Virus record (IMG/VR): IMGVR_UViG_3300025769_000126
Coordinates: 1 to 58,368 of that record
Length of the DNA: 58,368 nt
Strand: one strand, 5' to 3'
From: a virus
The notes under the pieces were generated by a model. The model did not search any database, was not told where the DNA came from, and saw only the letters and a program-made list of their open reading frames with translations. The position numbers were made by a program, and so were the translations under genes. Shown here piece by piece: positions 7,271 through 27,214 of this stretch. Each line of letters begins with the position of its first letter. The first letter of the stretch is position 1.

Positions 7271-7313
7271 TGACAATAGCTAGTTACTTCTATATCTTAA
7301 CAGGCTAATGTCA
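7271..7313 (+). repeat. 43-bp asymmetric inverted repeat, copy 1
   Basis: Arms begin TGACAATAGC and end GGCTAATGTCA, separated by an AT-rich centre. Preceded by GGGGG. The arms pair except for a fixed A/A mismatch at arm position 6 and two further mismatches in this copy. It has the same length as the other four copies, at 8181, 14779, 15561 and 27172. Confidence 0.85.
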
Positions 7314-7577
7314 TACTTTTCTTTGCTTGGATATTTTTTGTATTAGATATAGGGATATTTTTTATAGCAAGCTATACATTTTATTTTTATTTGCCACAGA
7401 GAAACTCTTTTTTTTTTACAAGCCCCCATGTTGTTTATATTAATCACAAATAGTTTTTTGGCTTTTTTATTTAAACATTTTCACACACTTTAATAAGCAT
7501 GATAAAAATCTTATCAATATTTTAGATAGCGGCCCCCGCCCGTAGGGCGTTTGTGTATAGCATTTTACAAGAATTTT

Positions 7578-7610
7578 ACGATGCTCGATCGATAGTATTA
7601 CTGAATTTAA
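7578..7610 (+). promoter_or_regulatory. Leader motif shared with 8349-8381
   Basis: ACGATGCTC-ATCGATA-TATTACTGAATTTAA is nearly identical to the stretch upstream of the paralogous gene at 8403. A shorter AAATACGA...GATAGTA...CCAAATAAA variant follows at 7640-7675, just before the ATG at 7689. Probably a promoter or 5' leader element. Confidence 0.5.
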
Positions 7611-7688
7611 TATAAAGTACGTAGACGATAAAGTCAAATAAAATACGAAGTATATAAGATAGTAAAACCAAATAAAATAATAAATATC

Positions 7689-7925
7689 ATGAACAAAGTA
7701 AACACATTAATCTCAAAAAGATTCGTAATCAGAAAATCTCTAATCGGTAAAAACACTGTAATCAAAGTTGAATTCAAGAATGGTAAAACATTTGAATACA
7801 ACCACGACAAGGCGTGGGAACTCATGAAAGACAACTTAGAAAATCTCGCGTGTTGGGAGAAGTACAAAAGTTATACAAGTAGCACTTCGATACCAAGAGT
7901 ACTACAATCGGCGGAGGTAGTGTAA
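7689..7925 (+). CDS. Small orphan protein, paralogue of the gene at 8403
   Basis: 78 aa, mixed alpha/beta, Lys-rich. It shares RKSLIG, FKNGK, YNHD and an identical tail CWEKYKSYTSSTSIP with the 75-aa product at 8403. The conservation of the C-terminal tail between otherwise diverged copies suggests a functional peptide. First gene of the rightward operon and so a likely early gene. No family recognised; early host-takeover function is only a guess from position. Confidence 0.65.
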   Translation: MNKVNTLISKRFVIRKSLIGKNTVIKVEFKNGKTFEYNHDKAWELMKDNLENLACWEKYKSYTSSTSIPRVLQSAEVV

Positions 7926-7936
7926 CAACTACTTCC

Positions 7937-7964
7937 ACCCCTTCGGGGTCGATCTATTGATCGA
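7937..7964 (+). terminator. Two tandem hairpins after the first early gene
   Basis: ACCCC-TTC-GGGGT (7937-7949) is followed at once by TCGATC-TATT-GATCGA (7949-7964), sharing one T. There is no U-tract, so this may be a processing or stability element rather than an intrinsic terminator. It directly precedes the tRNA-like element. Confidence 0.4.
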
Positions 7965-7972
7965 TCGATCTA

Positions 7973-8020
7973 TCTTGCACTAAAGGTTAGTCAAATGAGA
8001 GTTCGATTCTCTCTGCAAGA
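7973..8020 (+). ncRNA. 48-nt tRNA-like element without an anticodon arm
   Basis: A perfect 7-bp acceptor-like stem TCTTGCA/TGCAAGA (7973-7979 with 8014-8020) closes a small D-arm-like hairpin CTAA-AGG-TTAG (7980-7990). It also closes a perfect T-arm, GAGAG-TTCGATT-CTCTC (7997-8013), whose loop fits the GTTCRANTC rule. There is no room for an anticodon arm and no encoded CCA. It lies between a small gene and the membrane-protein gene at 8024. Alternatives are a decayed tRNA or a tRNA-derived attachment site, but the intact 5' strand of the acceptor argues against a bare att core. Confidence 0.5.
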
Positions 8021-8023
8021 TCT

Positions 8024-8173
8024 ATGAAATATGAACTAAAAAAAGAAAAGAACGAGAAAATAACAGTATTCCACGTGCTGCTGTTCTTAGTGTATGTATG
8101 GCAAACAACAGGTGTTTTGATACTTATTGGGTACTTAATAACTGGTAAACTTAACCCAATATTGTGGTTCTAA
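8024..8173 (+). CDS. Short single-span membrane protein
   Basis: 49 aa. A charged N-terminus (MKYELKKEKNEK) is followed by a long hydrophobic stretch (VFHVLLFLVYVW, then VLILIGYLI) that makes one or two membrane spans. The ATG lies 3 nt after the tRNA-like element. Its stop overlaps the run leading into the second 43-bp repeat. No homologue recognised; small phage membrane proteins of this kind often act in host inhibition or lysis control. Confidence 0.5.
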   Translation: MKYELKKEKNEKITVFHVLLFLVYVWQTTGVLILIGYLITGKLNPILWF

Positions 8174-8180
8174 AAAAGGG

Positions 8181-8223
8181 TGACAATAGCCTGTTACTTC
8201 TTAACCTTAATAGGCTAATGTCA
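8181..8223 (+). repeat. 43-bp asymmetric inverted repeat, copy 2
   Basis: TGACAATAGCCTGTTA ... TAATAGGCTAATGTCA, preceded by AAAAAAGGG. Apart from the fixed A/A mismatch at arm position 6 the arms pair well. Forward orientation relative to the rightward operon, in the leader of the gene at 8403. Confidence 0.88.
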
Positions 8224-8402
8224 CACTTTGCTTAAACTCCGCCCCTTGGGCGAAAATACACCGCCAGGTGTATAGCATAGTGTATAGCACTATGTATAGC
8301 ACTTCGCTTCGCCGTAAAGTCTTTGTTCCGTCGTCTCACAAACTTATTACGATGCTCTATCGATAATATTACTGAATTTAAACTAATAAATATAGTAAAA
8401 CC
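8224..8402 (+). promoter_or_regulatory. Hairpin-rich leader of the second paralogue
   Basis: Contains in order CGCCC-CTT-GGGCG (8240-8252), TACAC-CGCCAG-GTGTA (8257-8272), CATAGTG-TATAG-CACTATG (8276-8294), a triple TATAGCA repeat, and the leader motif ACGATGCTC-ATCGATA-TATTACTGAATTTAA (8349-8381). The first hairpin and the leader motif have counterparts in 7537-7610, so this leader is a diverged duplicate of the divergent control region. Confidence 0.6.
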
Positions 8403-8630
8403 ATGAAAGTATTAAAAGCAAAAAGATTCTTCTTAAGAAAATCTCTAATCGGACAAGACCAAGTAATTGAAGTTACCTTTAAAAACGGAAAAGTAGCAAA
8501 GTATAACCACGATGCAGTGTTTGAGGTAATGAAAAGTAAACTAGAAGAAATGAACTGTTGGGAAAAGTATAAAAGCTACACAAGTAGTACTTCAATACCT
8601 GTTCCAGCAAGAGAGTTACTGCTTGATTAA
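8403..8630 (+). CDS. Small orphan protein, paralogue of the gene at 7689
   Basis: 75 aa. It shares KRF-RKSLIG, V-FKNGK, YNHD, and the identical CWEKYKSYTSSTSIP tail with the product at 7689; the last eight residues differ. It is followed by a strong hairpin with a U-tract, so it can form its own transcription unit with the duplicated leader. Function unknown. Confidence 0.65.
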   Translation: MKVLKAKRFFLRKSLIGQDQVIEVTFKNGKVAKYNHDAVFEVMKSKLEEMNCWEKYKSYTSSTSIPVPARELLLD

Positions 8631-8645
8631 CAGCGAGTTGCAGAC

Positions 8646-8678
8646 AGAGGTGTGGAGTAACACCCTACACCTCTTTTT
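8646..8678 (+). terminator. Rho-independent terminator after the gene at 8403
   Basis: An 8-bp stem AGAGGTGT/ACACCTCT (8646-8653 with 8667-8674) is followed by TTTTT. It lies 16 nt after the stop codon at 8630. Confidence 0.8.
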
Positions 8679-8712
8679 AATACTTAAACAATAGTGCACC
8701 TTTTAACAATAA

Positions 8713-8751
8713 AAATACGGCACTTAATCGATAATAATACCAAATAAATAA
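8713..8751 (+). promoter_or_regulatory. Recurring early leader motif, copy upstream of 8760
   Basis: AATACGG-CACTTAATCGATAATAATACC-AAATAAA, just before the ATG at 8760. Nearly the same as the copy at 11534-11570. Possible phage promoter or translation leader. Confidence 0.45.
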
Positions 8752-8759
8752 CAAAAACC

Positions 8760-8945
8760 ATGAATAAAGTAAAAACACTTGCTAAAGACGACTTCGGAGT
8801 ACCATCTCTACTATTATTAACTAAAAACGGAACAGAAACTAAGTTAGAAAAAGTAGACTATACACGCTTCAAGTTTGAAGGGGAGTATGTATCTTACTCA
8901 GTTTTCTATCGCTTCAACAACAACACTTACATAGAAGTATGCTAA
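8760..8945 (+). CDS. Hypothetical small protein
   Basis: 61 aa, beta-rich, starting MNKVKTLAKDDFGVP. Its N-terminus resembles that of the 7689 product (MNKVNTLI) but the rest does not align. It follows a terminator and a leader motif, so it probably starts a new transcription unit. Function unknown. Confidence 0.55.
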   Translation: MNKVKTLAKDDFGVPSLLLLTKNGTETKLEKVDYTRFKFEGEYVSYSVFYRFNNNTYIEVC

Positions 8946-8947
8946 TC

Positions 8948-9181
8948 ATGAGTGACATAGATAAAAACACATTCCGTTTACATGTATTACTTGCAAGTTG
9001 TAAAGATTACACATATCTCAATAGCTTGAGTAAAACCAAAGACTTTCAAATCTCTACGCTGTGCCGACAAGTGTGCACTGAAAACGCTGAATGGGTGGAT
9101 GAAATACTGAGTTTAGACGCAGAAAAAGTCAATAAAAACGCATTAATAGACAAATTTATAAGAATAGTAAAGCATTTATAG
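8948..9181 (+). CDS. Hypothetical small helical protein
   Basis: 77 aa from the ATG at 8948 (MSDIDKNTFRLHV), 2 nt after the previous stop. An upstream in-frame ATG at 8939 would overlap the previous gene. Predominantly alpha-helical with two cysteines. No family recognised. Confidence 0.55.
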   Translation: MSDIDKNTFRLHVLLASCKDYTYLNSLSKTKDFQISTLCRQVCTENAEWVDEILSLDAEKVNKNALIDKFIRIVKHL

Positions 9182-9194
9182 AACAAAGTAGATA

Positions 9195-9374
9195 ATGAGC
9201 ATAGAAGAATTAAAAGATAAAACAAAAGAATTGTGCTTAGATTACCCGGAGTTTAAAGAAGACTTGATGGACTTATACCATCTTGCACTTGACGAGATCG
9301 GTCAAGGTGGATCAACTTGGCACGAGTGTGAACTAGCACTATCAGATATGGAGTATTTAATAAACACTAAATAA
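9195..9374 (+). CDS. Hypothetical acidic small protein
   Basis: 59 aa, MSIEELKDKTKELC..., ending EYLINTK. Acidic and helical, with DLYHLALDEIGQGGSTWHECE in the middle. It fills the gap between 9181 and 9383, has the same strand and base usage as its neighbours, and begins 13 nt after the previous stop. Function unknown. Confidence 0.55.
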   Translation: MSIEELKDKTKELCLDYPEFKEDLMDLYHLALDEIGQGGSTWHECELALSDMEYLINTK

Positions 9375-9382
9375 TTATAAAA

Positions 9383-9565
9383 ATGAGATATTCAGTAGAA
9401 TTAAGAGAACACACAGAAAGCGGTGACTACACAGAAGAGCACTACGACTTCGAAACAGAGAGACAAGCATTGACATTCGCAAGAATTAACATGAGAGATT
9501 TACACTCTGTACTTGACTATGGAGAAGAAGAATATGACCCTAAAGATATAACACACAGAGCATAA
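9383..9565 (+). CDS. Hypothetical acidic small protein
   Basis: 60 aa; beta strand SVELREHTESGDYTEEHYDFET then a helix. The stop overlaps the start of the next gene (TAATG at 9563-9567), indicating an operon and coupled translation. Function unknown. Confidence 0.55.
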   Translation: MRYSVELREHTESGDYTEEHYDFETERQALTFARINMRDLHSVLDYGEEEYDPKDITHRA

Positions 9566-9759
9566 TGAAAATAGATTTAAGTAAAATAGAAAACCCATAC
9601 GTCAACGGAATAGATTGGAGCGACTACCCACGCTTCTGTGACGCCTACTTGGAATCAGGTGAGATTGATGGTAGAGAATTAACCGACGAAGAAGTAGAAT
9701 TAGTGAATGAAGAACACACTGACTGGGTGTATGAACAGTTAAACAGACAACTATACTAA
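9565..9759 (+). CDS. Conserved phage hypothetical (I/V-D-G-I-D-x-x-DYP-F-CDA-type)
   Basis: 64 aa with the pattern NGIDWSDYPRFCDAYLESGEI...ELTDEEVELVNEE. This is a motif I recognise from many phage genomes, where it is always annotated as unknown. Acidic. The start overlaps the previous stop. Confidence 0.65.
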   Translation: MKIDLSKIENPYVNGIDWSDYPRFCDAYLESGEIDGRELTDEEVELVNEEHTDWVYEQLNRQLY

Positions 9760-9771
9760 AGAAAAAATAAA

Positions 9772-9981
9772 ATGAAATTAGACATAGACATGTATGAAAC
9801 ATCGTATCTACTCACTATGATTGAAGAGGAGATATCTAAAACAGAGAAGCTTCAAATAAACTGGTATGGTGAGGATATAGATTTTGAAACACCAACAATA
9901 CTCCAGCAGAAGATCGCTAGACTTAAATCATTAAAAGAAAGAATACTTAATAAAGCACAAGAAACACTAAGTTATGAGTAG
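9772..9981 (+). CDS. Hypothetical small helical protein
   Basis: 69 aa, two long helices (YETSYLLTMIEEEISKTE and LQQKIARLKSLKERILNKA), coiled-coil-like. It overlaps the following gene by 8 nt. Function unknown. Confidence 0.55.
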   Translation: MKLDIDMYETSYLLTMIEEEISKTEKLQINWYGEDIDFETPTILQQKIARLKSLKERILNKAQETLSYE

Positions 9982-10156
9982 TAAGAAAAAGAACGATAAC
10001 ATTACACCTAAAGGTAAAATCAACAGTAAAGTAGTGCATGTAAGAGCAGGGTCTCTGATTGCTGTAGAAGAAGACTACTATGTGAGAGTAACTAAAGATT
10101 ACGAAGAGAGGGTTTCTAACAGTGAGATACCTTCATGGATAAGGGGAATGTACTAA
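9974..10156 (+). CDS. Hypothetical small basic protein
   Basis: 60 aa, N-terminus MSSKKKNDNITPKGK, then beta-rich VVHVRAGSLIAVEEDYYVRV. Overlaps the previous gene by 8 nt. Function unknown. Confidence 0.5.
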   Translation: MSSKKKNDNITPKGKINSKVVHVRAGSLIAVEEDYYVRVTKDYEERVSNSEIPSWIRGMY

Positions 10157-10165
10157 TAAAAAACT

Positions 10166-10363
10166 ATGAGTAAGAAACAAACATTTCCACAAGTATGGCG
10201 AACCATTAAGTTTAAGAGTGATGTTATAGGTAGAAAGTATAGCGACGAAGTTATGTATTCCTACGACACTACAATTAATTCTGAAAAAGAGCTGAATAAA
10301 TTCTTTGAAGATGCACCACACGAAAGTTGTTATGAGTTAAGAAGATACACTCGTTTCAAATAA
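10166..10363 (+). CDS. Hypothetical small protein
   Basis: 65 aa, MSKKQTFPQVWRTIKFKSD..., mixed alpha/beta. The stop is embedded in the next copy of the leader motif (TAAAATACGAT). Function unknown. Confidence 0.5.
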   Translation: MSKKQTFPQVWRTIKFKSDVIGRKYSDEVMYSYDTTINSEKELNKFFEDAPHESCYELRRYTRFK

Positions 10364-10391
10364 AATACGATAACTATAAGATAATAATAAC
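10363..10391 (+). promoter_or_regulatory. Recurring early leader motif, copy upstream of 10392
   Basis: AAATACGATAACTATAAGATAATAATAAC abuts the ATG at 10392. It matches the AAATACGAT...GATAATAATA pattern seen at 11534, 18328 and elsewhere. Confidence 0.45.
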
Positions 10392-10610
10392 ATGAATATA
10401 CAAATTTGCAAATGCGGCGGTCCTATCCACCCAGTTAGAATTAAACTATCATACAACACTTGTGTCAAGTGTAGTACAACTGAACCATATGGCGCAGTGC
10501 CGATCACTAACCATAAAACAGGTAATAGCTTTCAGTTCATGCCAAAGTCACAAGCAGATAGTATTAACAAAGCTGCAAGGCGCAAAGGTTATGGAACATG
10601 TTTAAGATAA
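10392..10610 (+). CDS. Small zinc-finger-like protein
   Basis: 72 aa. CKCGG near residues 6-10 and CVKC near residues 24-27 form a likely four-cysteine zinc site. The C-terminal half is basic (INKAARRKGYGTCLR). Possible nucleic-acid or host-protein binder. No specific family recognised. Confidence 0.55.
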   Translation: MNIQICKCGGPIHPVRIKLSYNTCVKCSTTEPYGAVPITNHKTGNSFQFMPKSQADSINKAARRKGYGTCLR

Positions 10611-10677
10611 TTAAATAATATACACTATATGAATAAAATTAAAACATCTCAATAGTACACAATAAATAGTAACACTT

Positions 10678-11073
10678 ATGTATAATTATAATAATATACC
10701 ATTTAAGGATCGCCACAAGGTGGAAGATGCTTACGCTAAGTCACTAGAAATAATATATGGCATACAAGAAATAACCACCTCTAGCCAACGTAACAATGGT
10801 ACAAGATCATTTCTTATGCCAACAGGTCAACGTATCGCTTGCTTTGAGTCAGGTTATGTAAGAAAATTATCTCCTACGAGTAGATGGTATCAACTAAACA
10901 GAAAATACCTAAAAGAAACTAGGTATACTTTAATGAACAGCAATGGCGATCTTAGCACTAGAAAAACTATGTGTTGGGAGCGTGAACTAATACTAAACCC
11001 ACTTGCGCGCATGAAGTATATGCTAGAGTTTTACTTGAGAAACTATAAAAAAAATAAAGAAAAAATAAAATGA
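10678..11073 (+). CDS. Hypothetical basic protein
   Basis: 131 aa, Tyr-, Asn- and Lys-rich, with MPTGQRIACFESGYVRKLSP in the middle and a basic C-terminal tail (LRNYKKNKEKIK). Preceded by a 67-nt AT-rich gap holding no other credible gene. Function unknown. Confidence 0.55.
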   Translation: MYNYNNIPFKDRHKVEDAYAKSLEIIYGIQEITTSSQRNNGTRSFLMPTGQRIACFESGYVRKLSPTSRWYQLNRKYLKETRYTLMNSNGDLSTRKTMCWERELILNPLARMKYMLEFYLRNYKKNKEKIK

Positions 11074-11080
11074 AAAATAA

Positions 11081-11281
11081 ATGAATTTTAAATATATAAC
11101 AGTATTAGATTACGAAGACGGCATAGTATATGAGTATAAGCTACAACAACTGCTAAAAGAGTACTCTTTAGACGAAGATAAATTTCAGGCAGAGGATATA
11201 GAAGATATACTATACAAGAGAGGACACTCTAAATGGCATATCGAGTGGATGTGTAATAAAGAGTTTATTGCATGTGACTAG
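11081..11281 (+). CDS. Hypothetical acidic protein
   Basis: 66 aa; YITVLDYEDGIVYEYKLQQLL, then an acidic helical part and a C-terminal HIEWMCNKEFIACD. Seven nt after the previous gene. Function unknown. Confidence 0.55.
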   Translation: MNFKYITVLDYEDGIVYEYKLQQLLKEYSLDEDKFQAEDIEDILYKRGHSKWHIEWMCNKEFIACD

Positions 11282-11318
11282 TATTTCTTCGAAATGTAAG
11301 TATAAATATAAAAGACAA

Positions 11319-11534
11319 ATGAAGAAGAATAAGAAGAAGAGTGAAGACACAGAACTAGACGCAACAATAAGAGACCTGTCTAAGGTTCTAGCTGAAGACC
11401 TAATGGAGAGCTTAAACCATGCTATATCTTGGGCTATAACAGATACAGTGATAAACGAACTACCAGGTGATGAGTGGATTACTGCTATAAATAGATTATT
11501 CGATGCTACTATAAATGAAATAAGTTGCAAATAA
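11319..11534 (+). CDS. Hypothetical helical protein
   Basis: 71 aa from the ATG at 11319 (MKKNKKKSEDTELD). An earlier in-frame start at 11268 would overlap the previous gene and give a Lys/Ser-rich extension, so the internal start is preferred. Mostly helical (TIRDLSKVLAEDLMESLNHA). Function unknown. Confidence 0.5.
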   Translation: MKKNKKKSEDTELDATIRDLSKVLAEDLMESLNHAISWAITDTVINELPGDEWITAINRLFDATINEISCK

Positions 11535-11570
11535 AATACGATCGCTAATCGATAATAATACCAAATAAAA
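11534..11570 (+). promoter_or_regulatory. Recurring early leader motif, copy upstream of 11578
   Basis: AAATACGATCGCTAATCGATAATAATACC-AAATAAA, just upstream of the ATG at 11578. Nearly identical to the copy at 8713-8751. Confidence 0.5.
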
Positions 11571-11577
11571 AACAAAC

Positions 11578-11772
11578 ATGAAAACAGTTAATTTAAAAAC
11601 TTTTGTAGAATTCACACCAATAGAGAAAAACGTGTTAATTATGTCCTTAGAGTGTTTAAAAGAAGTAGTTGATGATGTACTACAGGATACTAATACACCT
11701 ATTGAAGCAGAACCAGTACTACAAGAAAGAATAAAAGCTTTTGAATCTATAAGACAAAAGCTGGGCATATAG
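11578..11772 (+). CDS. Hypothetical small helical protein
   Basis: 64 aa, acidic, with an MSLECLKEVVDDVLQ helix and a C-terminal LQERIKAFESIRQKLG coiled-coil-like helix. Its stop is followed directly by the structured RNA region. Function unknown. Confidence 0.55.
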   Translation: MKTVNLKTFVEFTPIEKNVLIMSLECLKEVVDDVLQDTNTPIEAEPVLQERIKAFESIRQKLGI

Positions 11773-11927
11773 TTAGAGGTTGCAGTGTGCTATACACGTT
11801 CATGGTTTTATTAGTTGCAGCGGCGGCAAGGAAAAAGGGTTAACAGTACTGTGTACAAACCAATAACCCCGAAAAACACGGTGAAAGCCCAGTTGTTAGG
11901 TACACGCAGTCGCCGCTAACCTCTAAC
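11772..11927 (+). ncRNA. Structured RNA with nested stems and a pseudoknot
   Basis: A perfect 10-bp closing stem GTTAGAGGTT/AACCTCTAAC (11772-11781 with 11918-11927). A second 7-bp GC-rich stem AGCGGCG/CGCCGCT (11819-11825 with 11911-11917) stacks directly on the 3' strand of the first. A hairpin GTGT-GCTAT-ACAC lies at 11785-11797. A 6-bp stem GGGTTA/TAACCC (11837-11842 with 11864-11869) has a loop segment GTGTAC (11851-11856) that pairs with GTACAC (11900-11905), forming a pseudoknot. Not a tRNA and no known RNA class recognised. The region has no longer ORF on either strand. Confidence 0.6.
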
Positions 11928-12013
11928 ATATGTTTAGTATAAATTTGTCACCTGAAACACAAGCCTTAGTTTTTCAGTAAAAACTAGTTCTTTTTGGAAC
12001 GAACGGTGGATGC

Positions 12014-12114
12014 CAGCTAGGTCAGGTAAAACATTGTACAAGTAAACGTTTTCACGAGCTTGTAGTGTACATAGGCTACCGACGGGTATAAGAGTTCGAT
12101 TCTCTCACTAGCTG
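12014..12114 (+). ncRNA. 101-nt tRNA-like / tmRNA-domain-like element
   Basis: Acceptor-like stem CAGCTAG/CTAGCTG (12014-12020 with 12108-12114). Next a helix GTC-A-GGTA/TACCGAC (12021-12028 with 12077-12083) replaces the D and anticodon arms. Inside it is a hairpin TACAAG/CTTGTA (12037-12042 with 12059-12064). A canonical T-loop TTCGATT sits on AGAG/CTCT (12091-12105). The layout acceptor, long second helix, T-arm resembles the tRNA-like domain of tmRNA, but no tag frame was found. Two small hairpins precede it (11967-11986 and 11987-12000), so it may be one RNA with the structure at 11772. Confidence 0.5.
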
Positions 12115-12116
12115 CT

Positions 12117-12374: not shown

Positions 12375-12410
12375 TATCAATAACGAAGCAGAACAAATAA
12401 AATTAGCGTT

Positions 12411-13016: not shown

Positions 13017-13017
13017 A

Positions 13018-13245: not shown

Positions 13246-13260
13246 CGATATATAATAATT
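13224..13260 (+). promoter_or_regulatory. Recurring leader motif, copy upstream of dCMP deaminase
   Basis: AATACGATCACTAACGGATA, then ACGATATATAATAATT, ending 4 nt before the ATG at 13265. It overlaps the stop of the previous gene, as other copies do. Confidence 0.45.
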
Positions 13261-13264
13261 AAAC

Positions 13265-13696: not shown

Positions 13697-13720
13697 TTTT
13701 TAACCACATAGAGCAAACTT

Positions 13721-14218
13721 ATGAACAAATTATTAATAACAACTATAGCAATAAGCTTAGCGATGCCAAAGAGCAACACGAGTAATGTTATACACAAGTC
13801 CTTTCCGACAGACGAGCAAGTAAAAGTAACGATCGAGTCCGCTCCGACAGACGAGCAAGCAAAAGTAACGATCAAGTCGTCATTGGAAGATCTAATCAAC
13901 GCGATCATTTATGTAGAAAGTAGAGGCGATGACTCTGCGATAGGTGATAATGGTTTAGCTGTAGGTTGTTTACAAATACATCCTATATGCATCAGGGAGG
14001 CCAATAGAATCATCGGGTTTGATTCTTTTTGTCTAGATGACAGATATAATAGGCAACAGTCTATAAACGTATTTAAGACCATTAAAAAACGTTATGCAAA
14101 TAAGTCGAATGAAGCTATAGCGCGCAACTGGAATGGCGGACCACTTGGTTATAAAAAGAAATCAACTATTAAATATTGGAATAAAGTCCAAACACGTTTA
14201 CAAAATAAATACGAATAA
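13721..14218 (+). CDS. Secreted lytic transglycosylase (SLT/goose-lysozyme-like)
   Basis: 165 aa. A hydrophobic N-terminus (MNKLLITTIAISLAM) looks like a signal peptide. A linker with two 13-residue repeats (PTDEQ-KVTI) follows. The catalytic domain starts near residue 56: AIIYVESRGDDSAIGDNGLAVGCLQIHP, with Glu66 as the likely catalytic acid, and RNWNGGP near the end. This is the SLT transglycosylase pattern. It would cleave peptidoglycan glycan strands in the periplasm. Unusually it is in the early/middle operon rather than beside the amidase of the lysis cassette. Confidence 0.8.
   Translation: MNKLLITTIAISLAMPKSNTSNVIHKSFPTDEQVKVTIESAPTDEQAKVTIKSSLEDLINAIIYVESRGDDSAIGDNGLAVGCLQIHPICIREANRIIGFDSFCLDDRYNRQQSINVFKTIKKRYANKSNEAIARNWNGGPLGYKKKSTIKYWNKVQTRLQNKYE
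13802..13878 (+). repeat. Tandem 39-bp duplication inside the transglycosylase gene
   Basis: Two copies of a TCCGACAGACGAGCAAG... unit with period 39 bp (unit starts near 13804 and 13843) encode the in-frame 13-residue repeat PTDEQVKVTIES / PTDEQAKVTIKS, which lengthens the linker between signal and catalytic domains. Confidence 0.85.
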
Positions 14219-14235: not shown

Positions 14236-14760
14236 ATGAATATATTTTATTTAGACGCAGATCCAGATACGGCTGCTAGGTTACAGTACAACAAACACGT
14301 TGTAAAAATGGTTCTTGAGTCAGCTCAAATGTTATGCTCGGCGCATCATTTTCATGGCAATGGTGACAACGTTCCATACAAAGTAAGCCACATTAACCAT
14401 CCAAGCACTATCTGGACTCGTTCTAATACTAAGCATTACAATTGGTTATACAACCATATGATGGCTTTAGGAGACGAATATACTAATCGTTATAAGAAAA
14501 CACATCTTACAATAATTAAATGCAAAGATGCTCTTAAATGGCCTCCTATGGGTATGACTACGTCAGATTTTAAGCAACCTCCACAGGCAATGCCAGACAA
14601 ATATAAAAGCGAATGTAGTATTAAGGCTTATTGGAAATATTATATAGCGGAAAAACACACAGTGGCTAATAAAGACGAAAAAATTTATGAAGAATATCCT
14701 ATTAACTATTCATTAATAAGATTATTTAAACGAAAATTGAATATGAATTATACAACTTAA
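14236..14760 (+). CDS. Conserved phage hypothetical (NIFYLD-DP...KHVVKM type)
   Basis: 174 aa. The N-terminus NIFYLDADPDTAARLQYNKH followed by VVKMVLESAQMLCSAHH is a signature I recognise from many marine and cyanophage genomes, always of unknown function; it includes several histidines. The rest has conserved Trp/Pro positions (KWPPMGMTT, QPPQAMPDKYK). Function unknown. Confidence 0.7.
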   Translation: MNIFYLDADPDTAARLQYNKHVVKMVLESAQMLCSAHHFHGNGDNVPYKVSHINHPSTIWTRSNTKHYNWLYNHMMALGDEYTNRYKKTHLTIIKCKDALKWPPMGMTTSDFKQPPQAMPDKYKSECSIKAYWKYYIAEKHTVANKDEKIYEEYPINYSLIRLFKRKLNMNYTT

Positions 14761-14778
14761 ATATAAAAGCATAAAACA

Positions 14779-14821
14779 TGACATTAGCCCTATAGGTTCC
14801 TTAAATAATAGGCTATTGTCA
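14779..14821 (-). repeat. 43-bp asymmetric inverted repeat, copy 3 (reversed)
   Basis: Reads TGACATTAGCC ... GGCTATTGTCA on the plus strand, the reverse orientation of copies 1, 2 and 4, and is followed by CCC. Intergenic between the genes ending at 14760 and starting at 14871. Confidence 0.85.
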
Positions 14822-14870: not shown

Positions 14871-15266
14871 ATGGAAAAAACACAAACAAAATTAAAGCAA
14901 GAACTACAAGCAAGCCTAGAGTCACTTGAGAGAATTAACAAAATGAATATGCGGCTAAACCAGGATCAAATTAATGCAGCTAAATTAGAAATTGAAGCAG
15001 CTAAAGTTAAGCTAAATGAAATAGATTGTAGACCAGTGTTGGGACGTCAAGATGTTGATGCTATTGATAAAGCAATAAGTGAAGCTTTTGAGGAGTTTGA
15101 CTTCGAAGATCCTCGTGGCTATGATTTTCAATACTCAATAGATTACGATAATACTATATATGTTGATTCTATGGAAACAAATAAAGTTCAAGATGTTATG
15201 TACGAAATATCTAGTGCTATTCTTAAACTATTTAAAATCGAAGAACATGGAGAAAATGAAGAGTAA
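14871..15266 (+). CDS. Hypothetical coiled-coil protein
   Basis: 131 aa. The first 55 residues are a coiled coil (KQELQASLESLERINKM, then INAAKLEIEAAKVKLNEI), followed by an acidic C-terminal half. No family recognised. Confidence 0.55.
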   Translation: MEKTQTKLKQELQASLESLERINKMNMRLNQDQINAAKLEIEAAKVKLNEIDCRPVLGRQDVDAIDKAISEAFEEFDFEDPRGYDFQYSIDYDNTIYVDSMETNKVQDVMYEISSAILKLFKIEEHGENEE

Positions 15267-15270
15267 AATA

Positions 15271-15560: not shown

Positions 15561-15603
15561 TGACAATAGCCTATAAAGATCCTTAAGTAATAGGCTAATG
15601 TCA
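15561..15603 (+). repeat. 43-bp asymmetric inverted repeat, copy 4
   Basis: TGACAATAGCCTATAAAGAT ... TAATAGGCTAATGTCA. It differs from the reverse complement of copy 5 at only about three positions. It ends 27 nt before the start of the HTH regulator at 15631. Confidence 0.88.
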
Positions 15604-15630: not shown

Positions 15631-16251
15631 ATGTCACAAGAAAGAAAAATACAATGGTTACATAGTAAACGCGTAATAACCCGCTGTATCCCTTGGAGTG
15701 ACGAACCTAGTGAGGAAACTGATATATACATGTACTATAAACACGGAACACACCAATGTTATACATTGTTTGCTAGTAAGGCAAAGATTACAACATATAG
15801 GTCTCTTAAGTGGCATTTTTTAGCAATATACTTTTTAAACCAAGAGTACTCCGATGATAAATTCTTAGAACATGTCTTTAGATTTATAGCTGACAAAGAA
15901 AATGGTTTTACAACTTTTTTTATAAGCAAAAAAACACTGAACGATATAATAGAAGATGTGTTTGCACAAGGCGGTGAGCCTCCAGTAAATAAGATACGTA
16001 AGGTTATATTTAAACCACCTGCTTGGCATTTTACCTTAAGTGAAAAACTAAGTATTGTGGGTAGGTTAATCGGCAGGGTGAAGTTGGACAAAACTATATT
16101 ATACCAGTGCATGTTAGATATAAACGATGCTGGTCAAAAAATAACAGTTAAAAGGCTATCGTCACTACTCGGTGTTACACCTAGAACAATTTATCGCCAC
16201 ATGTGCGACACTTTAAAACAAGAAAAAACAATATTAAATGAAAAGCTATAA
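15631..16251 (+). CDS. HTH transcription-regulator-like protein
   Basis: 206 aa from the ATG at 15631 (MSQERKIQW). An in-frame start at 15598 lies inside the 43-bp repeat and is less likely. Near the C-terminus ITVKRLSSLLGVTPRTIYRH is a clear helix-turn-helix. The N-terminal 150 residues match no family I know. The gene overlaps the sigma factor by 14 nt, so the two are co-translated. With a 43-bp repeat just upstream it is the best candidate for a protein binding that repeat, possibly autoregulated. Confidence 0.65.
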   Translation: MSQERKIQWLHSKRVITRCIPWSDEPSEETDIYMYYKHGTHQCYTLFASKAKITTYRSLKWHFLAIYFLNQEYSDDKFLEHVFRFIADKENGFTTFFISKKTLNDIIEDVFAQGGEPPVNKIRKVIFKPPAWHFTLSEKLSIVGRLIGRVKLDKTILYQCMLDINDAGQKITVKRLSSLLGVTPRTIYRHMCDTLKQEKTILNEKL

Positions 16252-16990
16252 TGTAGATAATTATATTAGATATAAAAAAGACGTAGATCGATCAATAATC
16301 GATGGTAAATTCTGGGACGAATATTCTAGAGATGAACTAATAACAAAGTTTTTACCGTTAGTAGAAAACTTAGCCAAGAAATTTTCAACATCACAACAAG
16401 CATCTGGTGTACTTAGCATAAATGATCTAATACAAGAAGGATCTGTTGGTCTGGTTGCTGCTGTAGATAGGATTGATTGGGAAAAGTTACTAGCCTCTAA
16501 CGATATTGAGAAAACAATAAAGTCTTTTTTAAGTAAAAGAATTAAAGGAGCAATAAGAAGAGCTGTAGACACACACAGAGGTAACATACGCATACCAGAG
16601 CATAAGCTAAATGAAATACGAAAAGATTTCGGTAAAGATAAGAGAATGGTTGAAATGTTCTTTAATAGTATATTTTTAAGCACCGATGCAAAACCTAACC
16701 AAGACGAAAACTTAGCTTACCAGATAGCTGACGAGTCAGAGCCATACAATGTAGAGCTATTAAACGCATATCTAAAAAGCTTACTTAAAAAACATCTTAA
16801 CGAAAGAGAATATGAAGTTTTAAGATTGAGCTACGGGTTGGACTGTGATAAGCACAGCGCTAAGCAAATAGCAGAAGAACTTAATATAAATGGTTCATCT
16901 GCTTATGTCCGCGTATCACAACTAAAAAAGCAGGCTGTTGATAAACTAATAGACAAAGTAGACCACTCGCAAGTGCTTGACTATCTTTAA
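16238..16990 (+). CDS. Phage sigma-70-family RNA polymerase sigma factor
   Basis: 250 aa. Region 2 is visible (LVENLAKKFS, then LSINDLIQEGSVGLVAAVDRI and FLSKRIKGAIRRAV). Region 4 has the HTH (LNEREYEVLRLSYGLDCDK, then SAKQIAEELNINGSSAYVRV and SQLKKQAVDKL). Region 1.1 is absent and the linker between regions 2 and 4 is short. It would redirect host RNA polymerase to phage promoters, fitting the absence of a phage RNA polymerase here. Overlaps the upstream HTH regulator gene by 14 nt. Confidence 0.88.
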   Translation: MKSYNVDNYIRYKKDVDRSIIDGKFWDEYSRDELITKFLPLVENLAKKFSTSQQASGVLSINDLIQEGSVGLVAAVDRIDWEKLLASNDIEKTIKSFLSKRIKGAIRRAVDTHRGNIRIPEHKLNEIRKDFGKDKRMVEMFFNSIFLSTDAKPNQDENLAYQIADESEPYNVELLNAYLKSLLKKHLNEREYEVLRLSYGLDCDKHSAKQIAEELNINGSSAYVRVSQLKKQAVDKLIDKVDHSQVLDYL

Positions 16991-17050
16991 GTTAAGTATT
17001 AAATTTCAATAAAAACATGTAATTATAATTAAACATACCAAGATACCAAA

Positions 17051-18872: not shown

Positions 18873-18873
18873 T

Positions 18874-20712: not shown

Positions 20713-20735
20713 AAAAAGTACCAGAAGGCTATGCT

Positions 20736-22400: not shown

Positions 22401-22615
22401 TGGCTATACGAGATCCAAAAAGTACTCACTACGAGTTATATAAAGGTACACAAGCTATCGACGTTATTGAGGCTGCTTTAACTAAAGATGAATTTATAGG
22501 TTTTTTGAAAGGCAACGCTTTGAAATATCAGCTACGTCTTGGTAAAAAAGATAATATGAGTAGAGAGTTTGAGAAAATAGAGTTTTACACTAAAGAAATA
22601 GAAAGATTAACATGA
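22400..22615 (+). CDS. DUF3310 (SaV-like) protein
   Basis: 71 aa with the DUF3310 pattern: HYELYKGTQAIDVIEAALTK, then GFLKGNALKYQLRLGKKDN and a C-terminal YTKEIERL helix. Common in phages, function unknown. Start overlaps the previous stop by 1 nt (TAATG) and its end overlaps the next gene by 4 nt. Confidence 0.8.
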   Translation: MAIRDPKSTHYELYKGTQAIDVIEAALTKDEFIGFLKGNALKYQLRLGKKDNMSREFEKIEFYTKEIERLT

Positions 22616-22869
22616 GAAATTACGTAACAAGAACACGAGATCAAATAGTGCTAGATGTTATTGAGAAAATAGATAACAGAAGCGTTATGGGTAACGACAA
22701 ATATGGCGGAACCATGATGAAAGAGATAGAAAATGGTGAAAAAGATTTAAAAGACTTCATCATCGATGTACAAGAAGAATTAATGGATGCTTTATTATAC
22801 CTTGAATCTGCAAAACATTGTCTAAACGATGCTATACAAGATGCTGCACTACGAATGGTTGCCGAGTAA
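22612..22869 (+). CDS. Phage hypothetical, possible all-alpha (MazG-like) NTP pyrophosphohydrolase
   Basis: 85 aa, all helical: MGNDKYGGTMMKEIENGEKD, then FIIDVQEELMDALLYLE. The KYG...EELxDxxxYLE pattern resembles small MazG/dCTPase-like phage proteins, but the full set of metal ligands is not obvious. It overlaps both neighbours by a few nt, in the cluster with the TS-family and MazG proteins. Confidence 0.55.
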   Translation: MRNYVTRTRDQIVLDVIEKIDNRSVMGNDKYGGTMMKEIENGEKDLKDFIIDVQEELMDALLYLESAKHCLNDAIQDAALRMVAE

Positions 22870-23324
22870 TGAAGAATCGATCAAGAAAAAAAAGAGGCCC
22901 TGTCAGAAGTAACAAAGTTACCTATGACGGGGTGACTTTTGCCTCTGGTTTAGAAAAATATATGTATCGAGCGCTTAAAAAAGCTAAGATAAAATTTGAA
23001 TATGAGCCAAGAACATACCAACTGTTAGAGTCATTTGAGTTTAGTAGTTGCGCTATAGAAAGACAAGCTAATGGTAAGGGTGACTTTAAAGACCGAGGAA
23101 ACAAAAAAATACTTGGCATTAAATACACACCAGATTTTGAAGGCGTTGGTTGGACATGTGAAACAAAAGGTAGAGCAAATGATAGCTTCCCTATTAGATA
23201 CAAGTTATTTAAACATTGGGTTCAGAATAATGATCCTGGTAGGTTGCTTCTAAAGCCACAGTGTCAACGCGAGTGTGACGTAGCAATTGAATTAATACTA
23301 CAATTAAAGAATGAAAAGGAATAA
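22869..23324 (+). CDS. DUF1064-like PD-(D/E)XK endonuclease
   Basis: 151 aa from the ATG at 22869 (TAATG overlap with the previous stop). Pattern: FASGLEKYMYRALKKAKIKFEYEPRTY split over the first half (Glu in GLEKYMY), then KYTPDFEG (catalytic Asp) and WTCETKGRAND (Glu-x-Lys), and FPIRYKLFKHW. This is the phage endonuclease type related to DUF1064 / T7 endonuclease I, which resolves branched DNA before packaging. Confidence 0.75.
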   Translation: MKNRSRKKRGPVRSNKVTYDGVTFASGLEKYMYRALKKAKIKFEYEPRTYQLLESFEFSSCAIERQANGKGDFKDRGNKKILGIKYTPDFEGVGWTCETKGRANDSFPIRYKLFKHWVQNNDPGRLLLKPQCQRECDVAIELILQLKNEKE

Positions 23325-23472
23325 TAAGATCGTAACCGCACAACAAAAAAGACTAGCACGAATAAAATATGGTGAACGTCAAGTTGACAAATGGATAAAA
23401 TGGAGATTGCAGCGATTTGGCTGTGTAAAGTATAAAGATTTAATAAAACAACAAGAAAAAAACGGAATATGA
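23311..23472 (+). CDS. Small basic hypothetical protein
   Basis: 53 aa, MKRNNKIVTAQQKRLARIKY..., helical and very basic. It overlaps the nuclease by 14 nt and the next gene by 4 nt (ATGA), as expected in this tightly packed operon. Possible nucleic-acid binder; function unknown. Confidence 0.5.
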   Translation: MKRNNKIVTAQQKRLARIKYGERQVDKWIKWRLQRFGCVKYKDLIKQQEKNGI

Positions 23473-23651
23473 GAACAGACTGGAGTTTAAGTATCGGGCT
23501 ATATCCTGGTATGTTGTTCGGATTTAGAACATACGAACACGAAAGTGAAACCTTTAATAAGGTAACACATGTATTTTATTTGCCATTTGTAGATTTGGCT
23601 TTAGAAATAATGAGAATAAATAACGAAGAAGAAAACAATGACGAAGGATAA
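23469..23651 (+). CDS. Small hypothetical protein upstream of RNR
   Basis: 60 aa: MRTDWSLSIGLYPGMLFGFRTY..., aromatic-rich then an acidic tail (EIMRINNEEENNDEG). It overlaps the RNR gene by 14 nt. The pattern GLYPGMLFGFRTY is found in small phage proteins of unknown role. Confidence 0.55.
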   Translation: MRTDWSLSIGLYPGMLFGFRTYEHESETFNKVTHVFYLPFVDLALEIMRINNEEENNDEG

Positions 23652-25509
23652 AAAGTTGTTAAGTGATATAACTGTGCACAATAAGTATGCGCGTTATTTA
23701 AAAGATGAAAACCGTAGAGAGACATGGTTAGAGCTAGTTACCAGGAACAAGGATATGCACATAAAAAAATATCCAAACTTAAAAGATAACATTGAGGAAC
23801 TATATGTTAAATACGTAATACCTAAGAAAGTATTACCTTCGATGAGATCGTTACAGTTTGGTGGTAAAGCAATAGAGCTAAATAACTCTAGAATATACAA
23901 TTGTGCATTTATGCCTGTTGATAGTATACACTCTTTTAGTGAAGCTATGTTTTTATTATTAGGTGGAACAGGTGTTGGCTATTCTGTGCAAAATCACAAT
24001 ATAGAAAAACTACCTGAGATACGTAAACCTAACTACAATAGACACAAGAGATACATAGTACAGGATAGCATAATGGGTTGGGCTGACGCTATTAAAACGT
24101 TATTTAAGTCCTACACCGGAAAGCTAACATCGCATATAACATTTGATCTATCTGATATTAGAGAAAAAGGTGCTGCGTTAGTAACAGCTGGAGGTAAAGC
24201 TCCTGGACCTGAGCCACTTAGGTTGTGCTTAGTTCAAATTGAAGCCATACTTAGACAGAAAAAAGATCGACATCAATTAACAGATATAGAGTGCCACGAT
24301 ATAATGTGTCATATAGCTGATGCTGTTTTAGCTGGTGGTATAAGAAGAGCAGCTATGATCTCGTTGTTTGATTTAAACTCAGAAGCAATGCTTAGCGCTA
24401 AGGTTGGAGCTTGGTGGGAAACAAACCCACAGAGAGGTCGAGCTAATAATTCAGTATCATTATTAAGACACAAGATCGATAAAGAGACCTTCTTTAATCT
24501 AATGGAAAGAGTAGAAGCATCTGGATCTGGTGAACCTGGTATATACTTAACCAACGATAAAACCTGGGGTACAAATCCATGTTGCGAAATAGCTTTAAGA
24601 CCATATCAGTTTTGTAATTTGACTGAGATTAACATGTCTACAATTAAAGATCAAGAGGACTTTGATAACTGTAGTTCTGCTGCGGCATTCTTAGGAACGT
24701 TACAAGCTGGTTATACAGACTTTCATTATCTAAGGGATATATGGCAAAGGACTACAGAAAAAGATGCGTTAATCGGCGTATCTATGACGGGTATAGCTGA
24801 TAAAAATGTTTTAGGTTTAAGCTTCAACAAAGCCGCAGAGACTGTTAAGAGCACAAATGCTTTTTATGCTAATAAAATAAATATAAACCAAGCGGCAAGG
24901 GCTACTTGTGTTAAACCAGCTGGAACAACTAGTTTAGTTTTAGGTACTAGTAGTGGGATTCATGCTTGGCATAGTGAATACTATATTAGAAGAATGCGTA
25001 TAGGTAAAAATGAAGCTATATATAAATACTTAAACGCTGTGTTACCAAAAGGGTTTTTAGAAGACGAGTTCTTTAGTCCAACAACAACAGCAGTTTTATC
25101 TATTCCACAAAAAGCACCAGATGGAGCTATAACTAGAAAAGAGTCTGCATTAGATTTGCTTGAAAGAGTTAAACAAATATCTAAAGATTGGGTTCAACCA
25201 GGCACAGTTGATGGTGCTAATACACACAATGTGTCTTGCACTGTTACAGTTAAACCTAGTGAATGGAAAGAAATTAGTAGCTGGATGTGGGAGAACAAAA
25301 AATACTATAATGGTCTATCTGTATTACCAGAAGATGGTGGAACATATAAGCAGACACCGTTTGAAGACTGTTCTAAGGAAACATATGAGAGAATGATGAA
25401 CGATTTATTAAGCGTTAATCTTGACATGTCATTAGTTTCAGAGGATTTTGATGCGACGTCGTTCTCAGAAATACTTGCTTGTGCTGGTGGTGCTTGCGAA
25501 ATCAAATAA
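23638..25509 (+). CDS. nrdJ: Class II (adenosylcobalamin-dependent) ribonucleotide reductase, monomeric type
   Basis: 623 aa. Active-site motif N313-P-C315-C-E317 with a second Cys at 326 gives the N-x-C-x-E and 11-residue Cys spacing of the class II monomeric enzyme (C408/C419 in Lactobacillus). Cys89 (IYNC) is the paired redox cysteine and the C-terminus carries the CAGGAC shuttle pair. Other matches are PSMRSLQFGG, LLGGTGVGYS, AGGIRRAAMI and CVKPAGTTSL. It reduces ribonucleotides to deoxynucleotides using host or environmental B12 and does not need oxygen or an R2 subunit. Last gene of the plus-strand operon. Confidence 0.92.
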   Translation: MTKDKKLLSDITVHNKYARYLKDENRRETWLELVTRNKDMHIKKYPNLKDNIEELYVKYVIPKKVLPSMRSLQFGGKAIELNNSRIYNCAFMPVDSIHSFSEAMFLLLGGTGVGYSVQNHNIEKLPEIRKPNYNRHKRYIVQDSIMGWADAIKTLFKSYTGKLTSHITFDLSDIREKGAALVTAGGKAPGPEPLRLCLVQIEAILRQKKDRHQLTDIECHDIMCHIADAVLAGGIRRAAMISLFDLNSEAMLSAKVGAWWETNPQRGRANNSVSLLRHKIDKETFFNLMERVEASGSGEPGIYLTNDKTWGTNPCCEIALRPYQFCNLTEINMSTIKDQEDFDNCSSAAAFLGTLQAGYTDFHYLRDIWQRTTEKDALIGVSMTGIADKNVLGLSFNKAAETVKSTNAFYANKININQAARATCVKPAGTTSLVLGTSSGIHAWHSEYYIRRMRIGKNEAIYKYLNAVLPKGFLEDEFFSPTTTAVLSIPQKAPDGAITRKESALDLLERVKQISKDWVQPGTVDGANTHNVSCTVTVKPSEWKEISSWMWENKKYYNGLSVLPEDGGTYKQTPFEDCSKETYERMMNDLLSVNLDMSLVSEDFDATSFSEILACAGGACEIK

Positions 25510-25530
25510 CTATTTAATTTAAAACTATAC

Positions 25531-25561
25531 ATGAGCCATAAATACAACTTTTATGGCTCAT
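25531..25561. terminator. Bidirectional hairpin after RNR
   Basis: An 11-bp perfect stem ATGAGCCATAA/TTATGGCTCAT (25531-25541 with 25551-25561) with a 9-nt loop lies 22 nt after the RNR stop. The flanking U-tracts are weak, but the position between convergent operons fits a terminator. Confidence 0.6.
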
Positions 25562-25574
25562 TTAACCAACAAAA

Positions 25575-25852
25575 ATGATCTATTAAATACTACTTTTTTA
25601 GAGATACAGATAACGAAAGCAACCTTTTGGATGGGAAAACTTACCACGCAGCAGGTTATGTTGAAAAACTATATTGCGAAATAGGAAAGCCGAACAGGAG
25701 TGGGAAAGACCTTGCAGTAATTTTTTTTTGAACCATTTGAAGGAACAATAACAAGTGCTTGGAGAGCATTGGATGAAGTTGAACTATTTGAGGTTGCTGA
25801 ATGGGAATACAAACAACTGATTGAAAAGTTTGATATGTTCTTTGATTATTAG
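25575..25852 (+). pseudogene. Frameshifted small ORF at the convergent junction
   Basis: Reading gives KYYFFRDTDNESNLLDGKTY and on to GKDLAVIFF, where the frame stops at a run of nine T (25721-25729). One frame over it continues EPFEGTITSAWRALDEVELF through EKFDMFFDY to a stop at 25850. The first codons are also out of frame with the ATG at 25575. So either a decayed gene with two indels, programmed slippage on T9, or sequencing error in homopolymers. The protein matches no family I know. It lies between the RNR and the minus-strand lysis genes. Confidence 0.5.
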
Positions 25853-25871
25853 CAACTGTTATGCTTTCGTT

Positions 25872-26246
25872 TTAATGCAGCAACCCAAACAACAAAGCAA
25901 TAATAACCCCTCCTAACGCAATCTTACGTGTTCTAAGCAACTTTCTATTTTTCTGTATTGTTTCATCTTTATAGTAAATTAGAGAGTCGTTTAGAATGCT
26001 TGAGATATTCTCCCAGTTCTTTATTTCCATTTTATATGTTAGCATCTTCTTGTCTTGTAAACCAATGACAGCACCTTGTTCGCTCCTAGTGTTAAGTAAA
26101 TCAACAATCATTATGTTGTCTAACCTATATTGGTCAACTGTTGTACACACACTATCTCTCTTGAGCGTATCTTGTGCGCAAGCTATCCCTGATAATAAGC
26201 TGAACGCTGTCGTTACTAAGATAAATATACTTAATCTCTTTTTCAT
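25872..26246 (-). CDS. Secreted/membrane protein, candidate spanin component
   Basis: 124 aa. N-terminal signal peptide (MKKRLSIFILVTTAFSLLSG then IACAQD, possible cleavage after ACA), a helical periplasmic part, then a C-terminal membrane segment (KIALGGVIIALLFGLL). Its 5' end is nested inside the 3' end of the preceding gene (95-nt overlap in another frame), an arrangement typical of overlapping spanin pairs. Last gene of the right minus-strand arm. Confidence 0.6.
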   Translation of the reverse strand: MKKRLSIFILVTTAFSLLSGIACAQDTLKRDSVCTTVDQYRLDNIMIVDLLNTRSEQGAVIGLQDKKMLTYKMEIKNWENISSILNDSLIYYKDETIQKNRKLLRTRKIALGGVIIALLFGLLH

Positions 26247-26463
26247 TCTTTATTCTCCATTTCATAACTACCTCTCGCTCTATTATAGTTAAAGTATCCC
26301 TAACGTTTCTTATAGAGTCTATTCGAGAGTATAAATTGCTTAATGTTTCTTTTTCACCTTTGTCTTTAACGGTTAAAAACAATATATTACCAATACTTAT
26401 AGCTAGTATACAGACTAATACAATTACAAAGGTTCTACGCACTGATCTTTCTGGCAAACTCAC
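26152..26463 (-). CDS. Inner-membrane spanin-like protein
   Basis: 103 aa. One N-terminal membrane helix (FVIVLVCILAISIGNILFL, residues about 12-30) and a charged periplasmic helix (ETLSNLYSRIDSIRNVRDTL and on). The start is uncertain: GTG at 26463 or 26442; both overlap the end of the amidase gene. Topology and position after the amidase fit an i-spanin that fuses the membranes during lysis. Confidence 0.6.
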   Translation of the reverse strand: MSLPERSVRRTFVIVLVCILAISIGNILFLTVKDKGEKETLSNLYSRIDSIRNVRDTLTIIEREVVMKWRIKNEKEIKYIYLSNDSVQLIIRDSLRTRYAQER

Positions 26464-26953
26464 TTATTAAATCAGCATACTTGCAAACATCTTTGAATTT
26501 GTTTGCTTCTAAATTTGTCCCAAAAAAAGGCTCAACTAACAAGCCAGTTGGGATACCACTTGCTACAGCCCAGTAACCTCTTTGATTACTATTACTTAGT
26601 GGCTTAGCACCCCTATTTCTACTGCCATATTCATCGGCAACCATATCACAAAACAATTTAGAAAATCTTTTACCCTCTTCGTTTGTGTGAAAGTATAAGC
26701 ATTCAACACCACTCGCTTGTGGAATAGCTGCATTAAAATGTAACTCTATAGTTAGATCATAGTTAGATAACTTACCGTATGTGGCTTTCATCTTTCTACG
26801 ATAACTGCTGTTGGGTTTATGTACAAAATAATCTAAACCAGTTTTCTTAGCAACCTCGATATTATAATTATATTCAGACTTACCTATATAGCTAGACTTA
26901 GCACCTTTGCTAATCCAATCATGTCCAACAACTAGTGCTATATCTCTTTTCAT
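26435..26953 (-). CDS. N-acetylmuramoyl-L-alanine amidase (Amidase_3), endolysin
   Basis: 172 aa with the zinc ligands of the Amidase_3 family: His11 (ALVVGHD), Glu27 (KSEYNYN), His72 (IELHFNAA) and catalytic Glu141 (GLLVEPFF), plus ASGVECLYF. It cleaves the bond between peptide and glycan in peptidoglycan. No signal peptide, so release depends on a holin or secretion by another route. It overlaps both neighbours and is the core of the lysis cassette. Confidence 0.88.
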   Translation of the reverse strand: MKRDIALVVGHDWISKGAKSSYIGKSEYNYNIEVAKKTGLDYFVHKPNSSYRRKMKATYGKLSNYDLTIELHFNAAIPQASGVECLYFHTNEEGKRFSKLFCDMVADEYGSRNRGAKPLSNSNQRGYWAVASGIPTGLLVEPFFGTNLEANKFKDVCKYADLISEFARKISA

Positions 26954-27126
26954 TTCACTAGTTTAATTGTATCCACAACCATTGAGTCTTTAACACATAT
27001 AAAGCTCGTATCAAACTTAACAACTACAGAATCAGCTATATAATTATCTACTAAAAACGAATTGCTTTTTTTAACACAAGAAACCATTGCTAACAACGTT
27101 AACGATGCTATAATTACTTTTTTCAT
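26950..27126 (-). CDS. Small lipoprotein, candidate outer-membrane spanin
   Basis: 58 aa from the ATG at 27126 (MKKVIIASLTLLAMVSCVKK); a GTG at 27141 is an alternative start. Basic N-terminus, hydrophobic stretch, then a lipobox-like MVSC with Cys17, giving a mature peptide of about 42 residues. Overlaps the amidase start by 4 nt. Likely outer-membrane lipoprotein of the lysis cassette, partner of the i-spanin-like gene at 26152. Confidence 0.6.
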   Translation of the reverse strand: MKKVIIASLTLLAMVSCVKKSNSFLVDNYIADSVVVKFDTSFICVKDSMVVDTIKLVK

Positions 27127-27171
27127 ATTTATTATTATCACTTATTAGCCTATAAATCTAACACTGTTGTA

Positions 27172-27214
27172 TGACATTAGCCTATTACTTACTTATCTTT
27201 ATAGGCTATTGTCA
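27172..27214 (-). repeat. 43-bp asymmetric inverted repeat, copy 5 (reversed)
   Basis: On the minus strand reads TGACAATAGCCTATAAAGAT ... TAATAGGCTAATGTCA, about 40 of 43 positions like copy 4. It lies between the stop of the giant virion gene and the lysis lipoprotein, in the forward sense of the leftward transcript. A half-site (ATAGGCTAAT, minus strand) is repeated at about 27144-27153. Confidence 0.88.

Follow-up and report, generated by a model that had tools for sequence, protein, structure and literature searches.

The virus record IMGVR_UViG_3300025769_000126 of IMG/VR, analysed here over its full 58,368 bases and hereafter called the window, carries five copies of a 43-bp imperfect inverted repeat between its genes. 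The element is a genuine control site that many related, uncultured marine phages retain at the same few positions. Judging from sequence comparison, it is probably a double-stranded operator by which a phage helix-turn-helix (HTH) regulator controls its own gene, and which also acts at the late promoter. The strongest evidence is an unbiased test of the link between element and HTH gene: among 80 loci retrieved by alignment of the HTH protein alone, with the element not used, 78 have a copy within 60 bp of the HTH start, as expected of an autoregulated phage operator.

Copies of the element and their distribution

The copies in the window, together with the two early genes used to recognize their sites in relatives, are located as follows.

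7271 to 7313, plus strand: copy 1 (site S1), between the early gene at 7689, which runs rightward, and the divergent late genes, which run leftward from a first ATG at 7229
8181 to 8223, plus strand: copy 2 (site S2), between the paralogous early genes at 7689 and 8403
14779 to 14821, minus strand: copy 3, between genes 14236-14760 and 14871-15266, restricted to the window and near-identical relatives
15561 to 15603, plus strand: copy 4 (site S3), where the HTH-sigma operon begins
27172 to 27214, minus strand: copy 5, 7 bp past the stop codon of the gene for a 2714-amino-acid late protein and upstream of the amidase-side genes
7689 to 7925, plus strand: early gene, paralog of 8403 and marker of S1 and S2 in relatives
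8403 to 8630, plus strand: early gene, paralog of 7689

All five copies listed in the initial annotation were recovered, each exactly 43 bp long, and a search of the window with up to three mismatches returned these five only. Chance or low complexity as their origin was rejected, as 100 dinucleotide-preserving shuffles gave no copy. The reported A/A mismatch at arm position 6 is present in every copy, and copies 4 and 5 do agree at 40 of 43 positions. The arms are in general as described, with the exception of copy 1, whose left arm is TGACAATAGCT (GCT for GCC, one arm position). GGG adjoins four of the five window copies on the left but is not kept in relatives; likewise, the length is constant throughout the window but varies from 41 to 45 bp across relatives. 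Furthermore, a second, independent asymmetry that had not been remarked on is located at the centre of the element, where TTACT occurs on one side. Its orientation relative to the arms in copies 1 and 2 is opposite to that in copies 4 and 5, while copy 3 has TTATT.

IMG/VR was searched with a pattern in which position 6 of each arm was free to be A or T and the spacer could be any 15 to 40 bases. At least 120 stretches matched, and the element counts are taken from the matches listed there. Among these 125 listed matches, 124 are true elements of 41-44 bp, all in the A/A (equivalently T/T) configuration, the sole exception being an unrelated 57-bp match, and homologs of window genes are present at all element loci from the listed stretches. 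Subsequently, a position weight matrix was run over ten near-complete relatives and the window (11 genomes), with 22 shuffled genomes as control. Each genome contains 2-5 elements with scores of 22.9-36.2, compared with a maximum of 12.9 in the shuffled set, and no element lies inside a gene, in agreement with the intergenic placement first described and at variance with a random scatter through genes.

The element recurs at homologous places in relatives. It occurs at S1 in the divergent region ahead of the leftward late genes, at S2 between paralogous early genes equivalent to 7689 and 8403, and, upstream of the sigma gene, at S3 where the HTH gene begins, this last site being found in all 11 genomes. 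Conservation does not extend to copies 3 and 5, which are extras of the window's own lineage; copy 5, like copy 3, was found only in the window and near-identical relatives. A further site, S4, belongs to the capsid region of another lineage, in which the capsid stop codon is followed by a GC-rich terminator, the element, about 30 bp and the start codon of the next gene. At S1 and S2 the TTACT interior faces the early genes, and at S3 it faces away from the HTH gene; at S4 it is inverted in one lineage while the order of the neighbours is unchanged.

It should be noted that the inverted arms with a directional mismatch, the presence of both orientations among the copies and the replication module adjoining S3 would suit a site for recombination, packaging or replication, for example for a resolvase, a ParB-like protein or an initiator. 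Such a role is nevertheless highly unlikely. The sites are stable in place across the 11 genomes, no rearrangement or inversion between copies was seen, and one site is located in the capsid region. Among the genes scanned, which do not include all small genes, there was no integrase, transposase or other recombinase to match, only a Holliday-junction resolvase and ERF/exonuclease. An identity as ordinary intrinsic terminators, which had been named as a possible outcome, is extremely improbable. The elements are hairpin-forming and intergenic, and CACTTTT follows some of them; however, copies 1-4 were not called by a terminator scan (copy 5 lay outside the scanned region), copy 1 is upstream of divergent genes, and the capsid site has a genuine GC-rich terminator next to the element.

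When the same pattern was applied to 84,980 bacterial and archaeal species, 38 stretches matched and only three contain a true element. Two of these lie on clearly phage contigs, which contain homologs of window early genes; the protein that binds the element is therefore probably encoded by the phage. Most of the 38 matches are perfect palindromes or unrelated sequence of other lengths, and a host regulator site was rejected. A known RNA family was also rejected, since no match to the element was found in Rfam.

Two observations were made beside these sites. In the 63,566-base contig G003, an identical S1 element with its neighbours is present at 3493-3534 and 62191-62232, 58.7 kb apart and near the contig ends, which suggests terminal redundancy or assembly overlap. 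Downstream of S2 in L013, L033, L063 and L076 there is a conserved stretch near CCTGATCCTGAAATAAGATCGGAAGAGTAGACTCCGTCC, possibly a small RNA, that includes 12 bases resembling a sequencing adapter, which may be coincidence.

The HTH regulator and its link to the element

The gene at S3 and its partner are the following.

15631 to 16251, plus strand: HTH regulator of 206 amino acids, the proposed binder, characterized by alignment, Pfam HTH_11 and an AlphaFold2 model
16238 to 16990, plus strand: phage sigma factor with regions 2 and 4; its gene shares 14 bp with the HTH gene

At least 454 IMG/VR stretches encode a relative of the HTH protein. In 74 of the 80 loci retrieved by protein alignment, the HTH ATG lies inside the element, exactly six bases before its end; in most relatives the arm ...AATGTCA thus supplies the HTH codons ATG TCA as the last six bases of the element. 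The initial annotation placed one copy just upstream of the pair of HTH and sigma genes. Copy 4 in fact overlaps the start of the longest open reading frame (15598), and the real HTH start is probably at 15631, shifted 27 bp downstream in the window lineage. Three further HTH homologs in a metagenome-assembled genome show the same arrangement of the element at the start. An Aliivibrio metagenome-assembled genome (L169 / G064) was observed to hold three complete phage HTH homologs and one partial homolog, apparently on phage contigs that were binned in.

The HTH gene is present in every checked record with a primase gene, which belongs to the replication module. The checked element-bearing records that lack the HTH gene also lack the primase gene, and so are probably fragments. 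Moreover, the element is missing from two public relatives that lack the regulator, as expected of an autoregulated operator. Neither the HTH gene nor the element was found in MW202828 or in the elemo phages (scanned over 50 of 60 kb), and the three matches in cellular genomes are strays. MW202828, an uncultured podovirus, and the Flavobacterium elemo phages have terminases 62% and 46% identical, respectively, to that of the window, which also codes for GroEL, the sigma factor, an ERF annealing protein, an exonuclease, a primase/helicase and a ribonucleotide reductase. The HTH fold is predicted with confidence, as a C-terminal helix-turn-helix, by AlphaFold2 (pLDDT 91), and Pfam HTH_11 matches all 29 aligned members, weakly. 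The core of the recognition helix and the core of the half-site are both nearly invariant.

Half-sites and the rule at position 6

The anatomy of the element was analysed in 183 unique elements, with related sequences counted as separate and without phylogenetic correction. The arms can be read as two inverted double-stranded half-sites TGACAWTAGC, about 32 bp from centre to centre (roughly three helical turns), in which bases 2-4 (GAC) and base 9 (G) are invariant. At arm pairs 7, 8 and 10, one-sided changes dominate, 154 cells being unpaired and 4 compensatory. These counts give no support to a conserved hairpin stem, and such changes fit independent protein contacts.

They bear directly on control at the RNA level, in which a hairpin in the messenger would hide the HTH start codon and be recognized by a phage protein or cleaved by an RNase. 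The ATG falls within the right arm in the same 74 loci, many copies lie directly past stop codons, in keeping with such a role, and single strands of the element give stable folds of -11 to -17 kcal/mol, all five copies folding better than their shuffles (z from -2.6 to -6.0). Even so, an RNA operator is unlikely. The hairpin RNA initially proposed is disfavoured by the changes at pairs 7, 8 and 10, which break pairing, and by the flip of orientation at a homologous site, the inverted capsid-site element of one lineage, which moreover stands behind an intrinsic terminator. The transcript at copy 3 also carries the opposite strand.

Identical half-sites were found in none of the 183 elements. 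At position 6 the letters of the two half-sites differ in 175, typically as A in one and T in the other. With letters assigned independently within three site classes, about 80 of the 183 would be expected to share a letter; eight do, and all eight have another arm mismatch or wobble. At S4, A/A and T/T forms both occur with the same flanks and interior orientation, and therefore it is the difference that is kept and not its direction. Avoidance of a stable hairpin was considered as the cause and was weakened by the 117 elements with another arm mismatch or wobble, 109 of which still differ at position 6; on its own, it does not fit well. Tuned affinity and an asymmetric complex are candidate reasons. 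As both arms read AAT (or both ATT) on one strand, the antisymmetry is a feature of a direct repeat. It may represent a functional polar signal superimposed on the inverted repeat, which a twofold-symmetric dimer could not read. In that case either the complex on the site would have an inherent asymmetry, as the regulator with the sigma factor or a polar oligomer might, or the site would act in DNA form and, via the embedded start codon, in RNA form too. This proposal is regarded as rather unlikely.

Promoter motifs, the proposed circuit and known systems

Two occurrences of a -10-like motif are relevant to the role of the element in transcription.

7236 to 7244, minus strand: -10-like motif TGTGATTAT of the putative leftward late promoter, 26 bp from copy 1
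17018 to 17026, plus strand: the same motif TGTAATTAT upstream of the ERF gene, with no element alongside

The motif T[GA]TAAT (consensus TGTAAKTATA) occurs to the late-gene side of S1, mostly at 22-31 bp, in 23 of 32 cases, compared with a control mean of 6 and maximum of 12. The same motif is present before the ERF gene, directly past the sigma gene, in most genomes, again without the element. The TGTAATTATA-type motif at 17018-17026 and 7236-7244 is a candidate promoter of the phage sigma factor. We infer that the -10-like motif would be the sigma promoter and the element an added control site at S1. The alternative of a composite promoter, in which the phage sigma factor, alone or together with the HTH protein, would recognize the element itself, is quite unlikely. 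Elements at the starts of transcription units, once right behind a terminator, and the adjoining, overlapping sigma and HTH genes would be in its favour; it is opposed by the separate -10-like motif beside S1 and, without an element, before the ERF gene, by the interior orientation that can invert at one site, and by the almost leaderless mRNA that a promoter within the element would produce at S3. A host-type -7 box, TAnnTTTG, was not enriched near the elements.

A second repeated motif, approximately CAAAnnAAATACGAT-N(8)-GATAATAATA, occurs on the plus strand at 7577, 7644, 8348, 8716, 10366, 11537, 13227, 14210 and 18331, mostly 20-60 bp upstream of early genes and in several relatives too; it looks like an early promoter or leader signal. 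Elsewhere in the window, a tandem 39-bp direct repeat (90% identical) is located at 13797-13874 within gene 13721-14218, and the 2714-amino-acid late protein (27222-35366, minus strand) has no Pfam or PHROG match.

Among the roles suggested in the initial annotation, that of an operator is well supported, whereas a hairpin RNA is disfavoured and a recombination site unsupported. Support from the sequences comes from conservation at fixed homologous sites, absence from cellular genomes bar three contigs, the near-perfect link with the HTH gene, the half-site structure and the lack of hairpin covariation. The operator would consist of the two inverted TGACAWTAGC half-sites and an accessory TTACT motif inside one half, and its most likely ligand is the HTH protein whose gene starts at copy 4. 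Bound to copy 4, this protein would block its own gene and the overlapping sigma gene. Copy 1 closely precedes the -35 region proposed for the leftward late promoter and would allow it to act at the divergent early/late region; with copy 2, upstream of an early gene, the same protein would make the early/late switch depend on its own level. Copies 3 and 5 would bring extra genes into the regulon of the window lineage, as would the capsid-region site in the other lineage. Binding by the HTH protein, its self-repression and the sign of regulation at S1, S2, S4 and copies 3 and 5 are the parts of this circuit that we infer.

Several points weigh against the operator reading. Two of the 80 HTH loci have no recognisable element at the HTH start, and the link could be positional, the HTH gene always being beside the site while another phage protein is the binder. 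No curated regulator family scored above the cut-off with the HTH protein and the model had no significant fold match in the PDB, so its binding mode is not predicted; the fold search matched an unnamed viral model, A0A516MIB4. A simple symmetric dimer would have no need of the antisymmetry at position 6. A fixed position over the start codon, with stable RNA hairpins, possibly also suits RNA-level control at S3. Finally, the promoter motif has statistical support only and also occurs at the ERF promoter, where there is no element.

The circuit ties together an HTH regulator, a sigma factor, a late promoter motif and a few operators, and offers a first view of regulation in a large group of uncultured marine Bacteroidota phages. 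Although at least 454 IMG/VR stretches encode the regulator, neither a counterpart of it nor the element was found in 50,697 public phage records, and the known phage isolates searched showed no element, HTH regulator or neighbouring early gene. Literature searches gave nothing on point for this operator or regulator family, and both appear undescribed in the collections and papers searched. Purified protein and synthetic DNA would suffice to test the circuit, with no need to cultivate the phage, and the strict absence of identical half-sites provides a clean, testable puzzle on how asymmetric operators are read.

With lambda OR and lac O1, the element shares inverted half-sites near promoters and the regulator's own gene. 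Such natural operators are often imperfectly symmetric; the present element differs in its 43 bp, in half-sites about three turns apart and in the ATG that is embedded in it in most relatives. Its two halves, moreover, are unlike in 183 of 183 elements, chiefly at one particular position. The stoperators of mycobacteriophage L5, also several intergenic, directional sites for one phage repressor, are about 13 bp long, many per genome, with an orientation that follows transcription. An identity of this type was rejected, since each genome here has 2-5 large dyads of 41-45 bp whose interior orientation varies relative to genes and can flip. FlhD4C2 boxes, two inverted boxes of 16-17 bp that together with their 10-11 bp spacer span about 43-48 bp, have a similar layout, but sequence and protein are unrelated and FlhD4C2 is a chromosomal activator. 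The attC and REP hairpin elements are likewise imperfect inverted repeats in which a fixed mismatch defines the strand; unlike them, the element occupies fixed homologous loci and does not preserve arm pairing by covariation, and no matching recombinase was seen among the genes scanned. Operators of phage regulators are a known kind, and it is the antisymmetry of its half-sites that sets this element apart.

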